Part shown: positions 19,639 to 57,917 of the stretch, piece by piece
Layout of the letters: the number at the start of each line of letters is the position of its first letter
Position numbering within the stretch: position 1 is the stretch's first letter
Assembly: GCA_028819575.1 (NCBI GenBank)
Contig: JAPPLB010000050.1
Location: forward strand, 1 to 64,000
DNA from: Bryobacterales bacterium
Lineage (GTDB): Bacteria; Acidobacteriota; Terriglobia; Bryobacterales; UBA6623
Direction of reading: 5' to 3'
DNA: 64,000 nt
Program-made: the position numbers and the translations under genes
The notes under the pieces: generated by a model
What the model was told of the DNA's origin: nothing
The model's input: only the letters and a program-made list of their open reading frames with translations
Databases searched by the model: none

Positions 19639-19815
19639 CCTGCATTTCCCACCACGTGGCGAGGTGAAGTGCGTGAGAGACCCGTCAGCAGGAGGCGCGC
19701 GCCGCTTGGCGTGCGCAGGTGTTCATTGACCGTACATCGAGCACGGCAAGAAAGCGCAACGAAGTCATGGCGGTCGTGTCGCGTGCTTCGCACGTCAGGT
19801 GGTGGGAAATGCAGG
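19639..19815 (+). repeat. TIR element family B, complete short form (177 bp)
   Basis: cctgcatttcccaccac ... gtggtgggaaatgcagg perfect 17-bp inverted termini; interior matches inverted copies at 35249 and 39580. Confidence 0.85.
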
Positions 19816-35248: not shown

Positions 35249-35449
35249 CCTGCATTTCTCACCACCCGACGGTCGAAGCACGCCATATGGCCGCCATGAC
35301 TTCGTTACGCTTGCTTGCCGTGCTCAACGTACTGTTCAAGTACGCCTGCGCGCGCCAAGCGGCTCGCGCCTTTTTCCTCCGCCCGGCTTGCGCCTCGTCC
35401 TGACAGCCCTCTCACGCACTTCGCCTCGCCACGTGGTGAGAAATGCAGG
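35249..35449 (-). repeat. TIR element family B, complete long form (201 bp)
   Basis: cctgcatttctcaccac ... gtggtgagaaatgcagg; inverted relative to 19639 copy; carries an extra about 24-bp internal block (caagccgggcggaggaaaaaggcg). Confidence 0.88.
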
Positions 35450-40795: not shown

Positions 40796-40844
40796 GGTTT
40801 TCGCATCACGAATCACGAGACACGAATCACGAGACACGGCTTTT
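40796..40844 (+). repeat. Heptamer array
   Basis: ggttttcg-catcacg-aatcacg-agacacg-aatcacg-agacacg-gctttt. Confidence 0.88.
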
Positions 40845-42233: not shown

Positions 42234-42281
42234 TTTTTGGGGTCACGAATCACGAAACACGAATCACGAGACACGGCCTTT
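42234..42281 (+). repeat. Heptamer array overlapping 3' end of permease gene
   Basis: tttttggggtcacgaatcacgaaacacgaatcacgagacacggccttt. Confidence 0.85.
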
Positions 42282-51509: not shown

Positions 51510-51540
51510 CCACTATCCACTAACCACTAACCACTGCTTT
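51510..51540 (+). repeat. Heptamer array, CCACTAA type
   Basis: ccactat-ccactaa-ccactaa-ccactg-ctttt. Confidence 0.88.
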
Positions 51541-51583
51541 TAAGGTTTTTCACGAGACACGAATCACGAATCACGGCTTTTTC
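51541..51583 (+). repeat. Heptamer array, CACGAAT type
   Basis: taaggttttt-cacgaga-cacgaat-cacgaat-cacgg-cttttt. Confidence 0.88.
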
Positions 51584-51764
51584 GTGTTCACCGGTCTTGG
51601 GCTGGTTAAGCCACCCTCGGCGCGCGAGCGCGGTTGCCGAGTGCGCATCTGGTACATCGTCCTGTTCCGCTCGAAGTCACGACGATTCAGTCCGTTCATT
51701 GTCCAATTGCGCCCGCCCACGTGATATTCCTGGTTCGGGGCGCCGGTTCACTCCTAAACTTTAG

Positions 51765-51949
51765 CCTTCATTTCTCACCACGCGGCGAGGTGAAGTGCGT
51801 GAGAGGGCCGCCAGGACCAGGCGCAAGCCGGGCGGAGGAAAAAGGCGCGCAACATGGCTTTTAAGGTTTTTCACGAATCACGAGACACGAATCACGAATC
51901 ACGGCTTTTTTATCGCGTGTTTCGGCCGTCGGGTGATGAGAAAGGCAGG
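51765..51949 (+). repeat. TIR element family B with heptamer array as its centre
   Basis: ccttcatttctcaccacgcggcgagg... left half; array 51854-51911; right half atcgcgtgtttcggccgtcgggtgatgagaaaggcagg. Confidence 0.85.
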
Positions 51950-51977
51950 TTAGAGGCCGCAGGGGGATCGAAGGTTC

Positions 51978-52682
51978 ATGCTGGAAGCTAAAGGGCTCAC
52001 CAAGTTCTACGGCTCGTTCAAGGCGCTCGACTCTCTCAATCTGTCGATCGAGCCCGGTCAAGTCTTCTGCTTGCTCGGGGCGAACGGGGCAGGCAAGACG
52101 ACGACGATCAATCTCTTCCTCAATTTCATCGAGGCCAGTTCCGGCGAAGCGCGCATTCACGGACTACAGGTAACCCAGCATCCGCTTGAGACCAAGAAGC
52201 ATGTTGCGTACATCCCGGAGCAGGTGATGCTCTACCGCAACCTCACCGGCCTCGAGAACCTGGAATTCTTCACTGCCTTGGCAGGGCACGAGGAGTATTC
52301 GCAAGACCAGCTCCGCGAGTTCTTGACCGAGGCTGGACTTTCCGCGGAGGCGATTGACCGGCGAGTCTCCGCCTACAGCAAGGGCATGCGACAGAAGGTC
52401 GGCATCGCGATAGCCGTGGCCAAGCAGGCCAAAGCCCTGCTGCTCGACGAGCCCACTTCGGGCCTCGACCCGAAGGCGTCGACCGAGTTCTCGGAGTTGC
52501 TGAAGCGCTTGAGCGGCGAAGGTGTGGCTGTGCTCATGGCGACGCACGATCTGTTCCGAGCCAAGGAGACCGGAACCCACGTCGGGATCATGAACCACGG
52601 ACGCCTCGTTGCACGCCTGACCACCGAGGAGATCGGCCACGCTGATCTCGAACGGCTCTATCTCGATCACATGCGCGGCTGA
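51978..52682 (+). CDS. ABC transporter ATP-binding protein
   Basis: LLGANGAGKTTTINLFLNF; YSKGMRQKVGIAIAVAKQAKALLLDEPTSGLDP. Confidence 0.93.
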   Translation: MLEAKGLTKFYGSFKALDSLNLSIEPGQVFCLLGANGAGKTTTINLFLNFIEASSGEARIHGLQVTQHPLETKKHVAYIPEQVMLYRNLTGLENLEFFTALAGHEEYSQDQLREFLTEAGLSAEAIDRRVSAYSKGMRQKVGIAIAVAKQAKALLLDEPTSGLDPKASTEFSELLKRLSGEGVAVLMATHDLFRAKETGTHVGIMNHGRLVARLTTEEIGHADLERLYLDHMRG

Positions 52683-52694
52683 GGAGGCGGACTT

Positions 52695-54110
52695 ATGGTG
52701 ATGCGAATCGCTCGCAAGGAGCTGCTGGAGATGACGCGTGACGGCCGTTTCCGAGTCGCAGGCGGAATCATTCTATTGTTGCTGCTCACTGTTCTCGGAC
52801 TCGGTTGGCGCAGACATGCGGATGTGACCAACGCGCATGAGATCGCAATGGCCCAGGAACGCGAGATCTGGGAATCCCAAGGAGAAAAGAGTCCCCACTC
52901 GGCCGCCCACTACGGTGTCTACGCCTTCAAACCGACAGGACGGCTGGCTTTTTTCGATCCTGGAACCGAAGCTTATACCGGTGTCACCGTCTGGTTGGAG
53001 GCGCACAAGCAGAATCAGTTCCTCTACCGTCCCGCGCGCGACGGCAATACTCTACAGCGCTTCGGCGAGTTGACCGCGGCGGCTGTTCTGCAGTTGTTGC
53101 TGCCGCTCTTGATCATCCTGCTTGCCTTCTCCGCATTTGCGGGCGAACGCGAATCCGGTACGTTGCGGCAAGTTCTCAGTCTGGGCGTGCGCCGGAGAGA
53201 CCTGGCTGTCGGCAAGGCGTTGGGCATTGCCGGCGCCTTGGCTTTGCTCTTGGTTCCGGCCGTCCTGCTCGGCTCGGCGATTCTGACGGCGGCCACGGCC
53301 GATTCGGCGTCCGGCGGACTCATGCGGATGCTCCTCCTCGCCGGCGTCTACCTGCTCTACCTCGGCGCCTTCGTCGGCGTGACTCTGGCGGTCTCGGCGA
53401 AGGCGCCCTCAGCCCGATTTGCTCTGGTCGCTTTGCTCGGGTTCTGGGTCTTCGTTTGCCTGGGGGCCCCGCGCGCGGCGACGGACCTCGCCAAGGCCTT
53501 GCATCCGACGCCGTCCGCCCAGGAGTTTGCCGCTGCCCTGGCTGATGAGAAGGAAGTTGGAATCGACGGCGTCGACTACGAAGACTTCCTGGAGGCGCGC
53601 AAGCAAGAGTTGTTGGCCGAGCACGGCGTGGAAGACGTCGAAGCGCTGCCGATCAACTACGCCGGTTGGCGCTTCAATGTCAGCGAAGAGTACAGCAACC
53701 AATTCTTCGACAGCCATTACGCTCGGCTTTGGGACCAGTACGAGGCGCAGGACGGATTTCGACAGAAGCTCGGCTTCGTGGCACCGTTGTTGGCGGTGCG
53801 CTCCCTGTCGATGTCGCTCGCCGGCTCGGATTTCGCACACTTCCGGTGGTTCGCCGAGCAGGCCGAGCAGTATCGCCGGAAGCTCATCGCCTTCTTGAAT
53901 GACGACATGCGCGACAACGCCGGCGTAGCGGGGTTCTCCTACCGAGGGGACCAGCGGCTTTGGAGCGAGGCGCCGGTCTTCGTCCATGAAGCGCCGAACC
54001 CGCTCTGGGCGATGTCGCGGCAATTCGCGGCCCTCGTCGCCCTGCTGCTGTGGCTCCTCATCTCCGCCTTCCTGGCATGGGGAGCGGCAGCGCGTTTGGA
54101 GGCCTATTAG
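52695..54110 (+). CDS. ABC-2 type permease (DUF3526-like)
   Basis: AGERESGTLRQVLSLGVRRRDLAVGKALG; multi-TM. Confidence 0.85.
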   Translation: MVMRIARKELLEMTRDGRFRVAGGIILLLLLTVLGLGWRRHADVTNAHEIAMAQEREIWESQGEKSPHSAAHYGVYAFKPTGRLAFFDPGTEAYTGVTVWLEAHKQNQFLYRPARDGNTLQRFGELTAAAVLQLLLPLLIILLAFSAFAGERESGTLRQVLSLGVRRRDLAVGKALGIAGALALLLVPAVLLGSAILTAATADSASGGLMRMLLLAGVYLLYLGAFVGVTLAVSAKAPSARFALVALLGFWVFVCLGAPRAATDLAKALHPTPSAQEFAAALADEKEVGIDGVDYEDFLEARKQELLAEHGVEDVEALPINYAGWRFNVSEEYSNQFFDSHYARLWDQYEAQDGFRQKLGFVAPLLAVRSLSMSLAGSDFAHFRWFAEQAEQYRRKLIAFLNDDMRDNAGVAGFSYRGDQRLWSEAPVFVHEAPNPLWAMSRQFAALVALLLWLLISAFLAWGAAARLEAY

Positions 54111-54112
54111 GA

Positions 54113-55549
54113 ATGCTCTTCCGAGTCGTGCGCAATGAGTGGCGCGGTCTGGCTGCGGACCGCACTCTTTGGGCCGTGACGGTCGTGCTCGCTGCGGTGA
54201 TGCTCTTCGCCGCCTCGAACGGCGCCCGCTGGTCCGCCCTGCAGCAAGAGCGGCATGGCAAGCTGGTCGCCGACGAGAGCGAGCGGCGCGAAGACACGCG
54301 TGCCGAACTGCTCAGGATCGCCGACGGCGGCTCGCCCCGAAGTCGCTTCTTCGATCCCCGCAACCCCGCGCAAGTCGGGCAGAGCTTCGCCGCCGGATAC
54401 GCATTACTGCCCCCTGCGGCGCTTGCGCCGCTGTCGGTCGGCCAGAGCGACCTCCTGCCCGCCCACTACAAGGTCACCCTGGCGAGCCGGGAGGCGCTGT
54501 TCGCAGGAGACGAACTCGATAACCCGACGAACCTTCTCGCTGGCAGTTTCGACGTTGCGTTCGTCATCGTCTTCCTCTATCCGCTGTTGATCCTTGCGCT
54601 GGGCTACAACCTGCTCTCTGGCGAGAAGGAGAGCGGCATACTGGCGTTGACGCTCTCGCAGCCGATTTCGCTTACGCGGTTTGCCGCGGCCAAAATCCTT
54701 GCTCGCGGCGGCGTCGTGCTGGGCGTGACAGCAGTGCTGACGCTGGCGGCGGCCGTCGCTGCTGGCGTCGATCTGAGCGCCCCCGGCGCACGTTCGTCCC
54801 TTGCCGCGTACTTCGGGGTCACCGCTGTGTACGGCCTGTTTTGGTTCTCCTTGGCGCTGTTGGTCAACGCTTTCGGCCGAGCCTCGGCCACCAACGCCGT
54901 GATCCTCGCCGGTGCTTGGCTCGCGCTCGCGCTGATTGTGCCGTCGGTGACGGCGCTGGTCGCCGCAACTCTCTACCCGGTTCCGTCACGCGTGGAGATG
55001 ATTCAGGCCGTCCGCGTGGCTGCCCAGGAAGCGTCCGAGCGAGGCAGCCAACTGCTCGACGCTTACTATGCCGACCACCCGGAAATGGCCCCTGAAGGCG
55101 AAGTCGACCCCAGAGACTACTACTCCCGCAAATTCGTCGTCGAGGATGAGGTCTCAAAACAGGTCTCCCCGCTGACCGAGCGGTTCGAAGCGCAGATTCG
55201 CGGGCAGCAATCCGTCGTCGAGAAGTTTCGCTTCTTGTCCCCGGCCGTGCTCGCGCAGCAGGCTTTGAACGATCTTTCCGGAACAGGCTACTCTCGGTTC
55301 GACCATTTTCGCAGCGAGGTCGGGCGCTTTGCCGACGAGTGGAAGGACCATTTCCTTCCGCAGGTCTTCCGTAAGACCGCCTTCACCGCCGAGGCGTTGG
55401 GGGAGCTCCCCCGTTTTTCCTATCGGCCTGAACGGCCTGGAGCGATCGCCGAGCGAGTCGGGGGCGCCACCCTCATCATCGCGCTGAGCACTGTGCTGTT
55501 GCTCGGCGCCGCTTCATGGGGATTGAAACGCTACCCCCTGACAAGCTGA
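54113..55549 (+). CDS. ABC-2 type permease (DUF3526-like)
   Basis: MLFRVVRNEWRGLAADRTLW; SGEKESGILALTLSQPISLTRFAAAKI. Confidence 0.85.
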   Translation: MLFRVVRNEWRGLAADRTLWAVTVVLAAVMLFAASNGARWSALQQERHGKLVADESERREDTRAELLRIADGGSPRSRFFDPRNPAQVGQSFAAGYALLPPAALAPLSVGQSDLLPAHYKVTLASREALFAGDELDNPTNLLAGSFDVAFVIVFLYPLLILALGYNLLSGEKESGILALTLSQPISLTRFAAAKILARGGVVLGVTAVLTLAAAVAAGVDLSAPGARSSLAAYFGVTAVYGLFWFSLALLVNAFGRASATNAVILAGAWLALALIVPSVTALVAATLYPVPSRVEMIQAVRVAAQEASERGSQLLDAYYADHPEMAPEGEVDPRDYYSRKFVVEDEVSKQVSPLTERFEAQIRGQQSVVEKFRFLSPAVLAQQALNDLSGTGYSRFDHFRSEVGRFADEWKDHFLPQVFRKTAFTAEALGELPRFSYRPERPGAIAERVGGATLIIALSTVLLLGAASWGLKRYPLTS

Positions 55550-55690
55550 CCTGCATTTCTCACCACGCGGCGAGGCGAAGTGCGTGAGAGGGCCGTCAGG
55601 ACTAGGCGCAAGCTGGGCGGAGGAAAAAGGCGCACGGCGCAAGCCAGCGCGAATTCCGAGGTTTTCACGAAACACGAATCACGGCTTTTA
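55550..55690 (+). repeat. TIR element family B left half followed by heptamer array
   Basis: cctgcatttctcaccacgcggcgaggcgaagtgcgtgagagggccgtcagg...ggaggaaaaaggcgc then gttttcacgaaacacgaatcacggctttt. Confidence 0.85.
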
Positions 55691-57791: not shown

Positions 57792-57917
57792 CTCAAGAAT
57801 CACGAAACACGGCCTTTAAGGTTCACTGGCCGTCAGGCATTTCTTCTGGAGCGAACCAAGCCCCCCGCCAATGGTTTTCACGAAACACGAATCACGAGAC
57901 ACGAATCACGGCTTTTT
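57792..57917 (+). repeat. Composite heptamer element (long form)
   Basis: caagaatcacgaaacacggccttt - spacer - ggttttcacgaaacacgaatcacgagacacgaatcacggcttttt. Confidence 0.88.

Follow-up and report, generated by a model that had tools for sequence, protein, structure and literature searches.

A heptamer array lying inside a short inverted-repeat element raises the question of whether the array belongs to the element, inserted into it, or was captured by it once and then spread with it. In this work, we have addressed this question for the element at positions 51765-51949 of a 64,000-nucleotide stretch of DNA from a Bryobacterales bacterium (the window), comparing it with its copies elsewhere in the same genome (G000), in a sister species (G001) and in a further related species (G002). 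Our results show that a 185-bp element begins and ends exactly at these coordinates, with terminal inverted repeats (TIRs) of 17 bp and a perfect TTAG target duplication around it (Table 1), which confirms the boundaries and sequence quoted in the earlier note. The note had placed the array at the exact centre; this is wrong, since 107 bp of the element precede the array and 46 bp follow it. In folding energy, the element falls among its shuffles (z of -1.3 as RNA and -0.96 as DNA), and an Rfam search with it gave no family match.

Table 1. Features of the MITE copy at 51765-51949 and of related sequences in the window
Feature	Position	Strand	Remark
Target duplication TTAG, left copy	51761..51764	.	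From sequence; within the family, YTAR flanks are the most frequent
Whole MITE, array-bearing form, 185 bp	51765..51949	+	
Left terminal inverted repeat, CCTTCATTTCTCACCAC	51765..51781	+	
MITE left arm, including GGAGGAAAAAGGCGCG	51782..51849	+	Common to array-free forms
Joint segment CAACATGGCTTTTAAGGTTTTT, running into the array	51850..51871	+	Missing in array-free forms
Heptamer array CACGAAT-CACGAGA-CACGAAT-CACGAAT-CACG	51872..51903	+	Four units
GCTTTTTT	51904..51911	+	Corresponds to (G)GCCTTT, with which arrays outside the MITE end sharply on the right
Right arm and right TIR	51912..51949	+	TIR at 51933-51949, minus-strand orientation
Target duplication TTAG, right copy	51950..51953	.	From sequence
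Array-free 201-bp form of the MITE	35249..35449	-	Flanks CTAG / CTTG
Array-free 177-bp form of the MITE	19639..19815	+	
One-ended relative, in which a different module and an array follow the left TIR and left arm	55550..55690	+	Right arm absent
Array outside the MITE: CACTAAC-type array, GCTTTTAAGGTTTTT, CACGAAT-type array, GCTTTTT	51511..51582	+	Same intergenic gap as the MITE
Arrays cited for stop-codon proximity	40807-40838, 42244-42275, 57879-57910		Together with sample arrays

The element belongs to an abundant family. The window contains 12 TIR-like 17-mers with at most three mismatches, where a dinucleotide shuffle predicts 0.2, and a 23-position end pattern has 618 + 642 = 1,260 matches across the 5.4-Mb genome, where the reversed control pattern has none; several hundred such mini-transposons are present in this genome. 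Some 30 further copies are alike over nearly the full 185 bp, arms and array together, with 79-92% identity, so that the right half of the element, for which chance similarity had been considered, is genuine. The same copies, at loci with distinct flanks, together with those in the separate sister genome, refute a chance resemblance or a misassembly of two unrelated repeats, a reading to which we give practically no credit in spite of an assembly in 200 contigs, several of which end at TIRs. Since MITE ends are found no more than some 30-150 bp from many contig ends of G000 (C2, C3, C4, C5, C6, C8, C10 and others), it is probably the MITE repeat itself that breaks the assembly. The 103 distinct paired copies that we collected comprise 66 without an array, mostly of the 201- or 177-bp form, and 37 with one, a ratio that does not stand for a genome census as the set was partly retrieved by similarity to the window copy and by array patterns. 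In stretches read whole, array-like matches were carried by 13 of 38 pairs in G000, 4 of 16 in G001 and none of 3 in G002; known hits had guided the choice of some G000 stretches and of all those from G002.

Which transposition system does the MITE use? Two intact ORFs in G000 match PF13701 with 489-494 bits, and the one covered by the NCBIfam scan, on L122, is an IS1380 transposase by NF033539 (385 bits, cut-off 180). Both insertion sequences measure 1,723 bp from TIR to TIR, with duplications CTAA or CTAG and boundaries CCYGCATTTCTCACCAG / CCCGGATATCTCACCAG. Their left ends, CCTGCATTTCTCACCAG and CCCGCATTTCTCACCAG, read CCYGCATTTCTCACCAG, the MITE consensus end is CCTGCATTTCTCACCAC, and the MITE TIRs match the ends of the IS1380 elements. 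Many IS1380 relatives of several phyla have CTAG|CCYG[CG]ATTTCTCAC-like ends, with both ends above threshold at part of the loci inspected. The target site is also that of IS1380: CTAG, TTAG, TTAA and CTAA are all among the five commonest MITE flanks, fitting the motif YTAR, and the 4-bp flanks are identical in 27 of the 103 copies, a partly selected set, whereas 2,000 rounds of re-dealing the flanks gave 11.9 on average and 23 at most. An earlier, smaller set had given 8 of 39 pairs, with 4.8 expected and a maximum of 10. The duplications are imperfect in most copies, identical ones being present in 6 of the 37 array copies and in 21 of the 66 array-free copies.

Since the ends match, the target duplications follow YTAR and an IS1380 transposase is encoded in the same genome, the element is, judged by its sequence, a non-autonomous MITE using IS1380-type ends, and we infer that the IS1380 transposase moves it in trans. 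With the IS1380 family and the MITEs mobilised by insertion sequences it shares the end sequence, the YTAR target, the 4-bp duplication, a non-coding nature, a high copy number and the presence of the family transposase. It differs in that the ends alone match, while its interior looks unrelated to the insertion sequence. No clear similarity was seen past the TIR where the ends were inspected, which rules out an origin as a simple internal deletion of the insertion sequence. Many MITEs have just their ends in common with an insertion sequence, and an internal-deletion origin is not essential to the class. In the papers searched we found no IS1380-linked MITE of this type. As a separate observation, a 2.3-kb contig labelled Gammaproteobacteria (L178, JAPOWV010000036.1) carries a 93%-identical IS1380 transposase adjoining copies of the MITE ends, a possible case of misbinning or of transfer.

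How did the array come to be in the MITE? In the window-type array copies, the arms are those of the 201-bp form and its centre of about 61 bp is exchanged for about 66 bp, consisting of ACATGGCCTTTAAGGTTTTT, the array and GGCCTTT, in this order; the proposal that the array replaces part of the element is thus true for this lineage. The earlier note had called for an alignment of the copies to see where the array lies. From its last CAC to the right end there are 46 bp in 20 copies, 47 in 15, 48 in one and 76 in one, so that in 36 of the 37 array copies the right junction varies by no more than the length of a T run, while the distance from the left end to the array falls in several classes between 90 and 203 bp. 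The array copies also have the preceding segment CAACATGGCCTTTAAGG in common. The array is therefore enclosed by the MITE ends and amplified with the MITE. Other forms of the family differ by deletions or by additional parts: a 24-bp deletion between short direct repeats separates the 177-bp from the 201-bp form, and in a 270-bp copy (L147, 3588-3857) two arrays flank a module, C, where a deletion between the two arrays would yield the common form.

It could be argued that the arrays are mobile in their own right and have repeatedly entered MITE copies at a hot spot, since they occur at many sites beyond the MITE and are sharply delimited on the right, as a mobile cassette might be. However, a right junction that is fixed while the left distance varies, and that is the same in the sister species, makes repeated insertion unlikely, as does the common segment preceding the array; moreover, informal inspection of the alignments revealed no target duplication around it. 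We regard this explanation, which takes up the suggestion in the earlier note that the arrays insert into the element, as improbable, and a single joining followed by amplification as the most likely course of events.

The comparison among species bears on the order of events. The array copies of G001 have the same junctions as those of G000, whereas in G002 the array-free 177-bp form is the only form of the MITE found, with no full-length match to the array form; array-pattern matches number 666 in G000, 606 in G001 and 16 in G002. Since all three species have the array-free centre, and in G002 the MITE is array-free only, this centre should be older than the array form, or at least independent of it. 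This speaks against the array being the original core of the element and the array-free forms its deletion or replacement derivatives, even though array forms are present in two species and deletion between direct repeats is clearly at work in the family; we hold this order of descent to be about as improbable as repeated insertion. The simplest reading, under an assumed branching order of the three species, is that the array was gained before G000 and G001 split. A search for an orthologous empty site by means of the ABC-transporter gene beside the element gave just short matches in G001 and G002.

The arrays are not confined to the MITE. Among 67 arrays in 864 kb of G000, 10 are enclosed by paired ends, 13 have a single end nearby and 44 lie elsewhere, the last figure being an overcount as the pairing rule skipped some MITE copies, the window's own included. 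We sorted 170 arrays by motifs defined post hoc, after inspection of the flanks, single-linkage clustering having merged most modules. In these classes the right arm, which is short (about 46 bp), follows five left modules (B in 33 cases, C in 10, D in 2, E in 1 and H in 1, with 9 unassigned), and all five occur without the right arm too. In the 60 arrays lacking this arm conservation is at background six bases past the last CACG, and the right edge, GGCCTTT, is sharp. Several modules are thus joined through one short repeat, in classes drawn after the fact, and the fact that arrays outside the MITE follow several left modules and break off sharply on the right suggests a mosaic in which the array may serve as the exchange point. 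The shared right arm, the mixture of modules and the two-array copies support such exchange but do not prove it. The notion that array and element form one composite system is right in part: the same arrays are also joined to other modules outside the MITE.

The arrays themselves are built from few unit variants and are short. The unit consensus is CACGARW, and 277 of 289 units in G000 (96%) are CACGAAT, CACGAGA, CACGAAA or CACGAGT; the same four variants dominate in G001. Arrays of two, three and four units number 25, 21 and 44 in G000, with 54 different orders among these 90 arrays, and all 33 arrays of G001 have 2-4 units; a lone five-unit array, at L105, comes from outside these samples. 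Among 27 MITE copies, several of which have lost whole units, departure from the consensus amounts to 1.0% of cells in the CACGA core, 6.2% in the arms and 11.7% at the two variable positions, where the choice of copies by array-like sequence, homogenisation between units, or both, could contribute to the low core value; we make no claim of purifying selection.

These features raise the possibility that the arrays are functional regulatory sites, either binding sites or transcript elements, carried by the MITE as cargo, which would be compatible with a single capture. The restricted set of variants, the limit of 2-4 units in the samples and the conserved core point in this direction, and so does the position of 98 of 101 arrays outside predicted genes (3 inside) in DNA called 81% coding. 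However, location is a weak argument, since MITEs are intergenic too and the gene calls come from a home-made predictor; copy selection or homogenisation could lower the divergence of the core; and gene orientation around the 101 arrays shows no consistent preference. A regulatory role is therefore a tentative proposal, which we find less likely than its absence. More speculative still is the idea that a dedicated protein recognises the arrays, which would form a hub for recombination or a regulatory code with four variants (CACGA plus AT, GA, AA or GT) and about four units at most, and that mobile elements took them up to disperse and reshuffle intergenic modules. When the right-hand gene points toward the array, the array is often 5-50 bp from its stop codon.

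We propose that an IS1380-family transposase recognises the ends of about 16 bp and inserts the MITE in trans at YTAR with a 4-bp duplication. In the ancestor of G000 and its sister species, a repeat piece bearing the array, with GGCCTTT as its right edge, would have become attached, in a single event, to an array-free MITE at its right arm, and the hybrid would then have been amplified by ordinary transposition of the IS1380 type. The left side would have been remodelled later through loss of whole units and exchange or deletion of left modules, with the arrays or other short direct repeats as homology blocks. We consider this explanation as a whole probable.

The element is real, and it is largely explained as a MITE bearing a tandem repeat, a kind that is already known. 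The BrickBuilt MITE of Porphyromonas gingivalis, whose description cites animal examples of array-bearing MITEs, encloses a tandem array in a bacterial MITE (PMC4596501). Both are intergenic MITEs with IS-like ends around the array, but BrickBuilt has 23-nt units in 19 copies, whereas here the units are of 7 nt, the copies are many more and arrays occur outside the MITE too (PMC4596501). In the intergenic mosaic elements of Neisseria (dRS3/RS), several modules are likewise joined through one short shared repeat, and recombination has been proposed to take place at these joints; dRS3, however, is a 20-bp inverted repeat and a phage-integrase target, while the array here consists of direct heptamer repeats, for which no recombinase is known (PMC3898611). 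Intergenic heptamer arrays have been described in Beggiatoaceae (TAACTGA; PMC4679880) and in Xanthomonas, where GGGAATC arrays have degenerate unit positions and four units are commonest (PMC4692102). The Xanthomonas units are G-rich, quadruplex-capable, present in up to 26 per array and reportedly not associated, in general, with mobile elements, in contrast to CACGARW, which has no G-runs, comes in 2-4 units and lies partly inside a MITE (PMC4692102). The combination of a heptamer array in an IS1380-type MITE with a mosaic was absent from the papers searched, among which there were few from subscription journals. In this family, the capture of a tandem array by a bacterial MITE and their joint spread can be followed in countable copies, and array-free and two-array forms and three related species can be compared. 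Heptamer arrays, known from several phyla, are limited here both in their unit variants and in their length, for which ordinary slippage is no obvious explanation.

Some further observations concern the surroundings of the element and other arrays. An ABC-transporter ATPase gene and the two large ORFs after it (51978-55549) are bracketed by MITEs on both sides: a complete copy lies 28 bp upstream of the ATPase gene, and the one-ended relative begins immediately behind the final stop codon of the block. The window also encodes proteins with PSD1, PSCyt2 and DUF1501 domains, a set compatible with Planctomycetota as well as with some Acidobacteriota. PF07596, regarded as a marker of planctomycetes, had no match here, nor in any of the control genomes. 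A CACTAAC-type heptamer array directly precedes the CACGAAT-type array at 51511-51582, and at a locus of G001 (L262) a CACTAAC-type array lies between GGTTTTT and CACGGCCTTT, the usual position of CACGAAT arrays. The reversed control pattern, in effect a CACTAAG heptamer array, is abundant in some genomes of the phylum sample (291 matches in G237 and 112 in G232), and CAC-led heptamer arrays may be widespread in the phylum.
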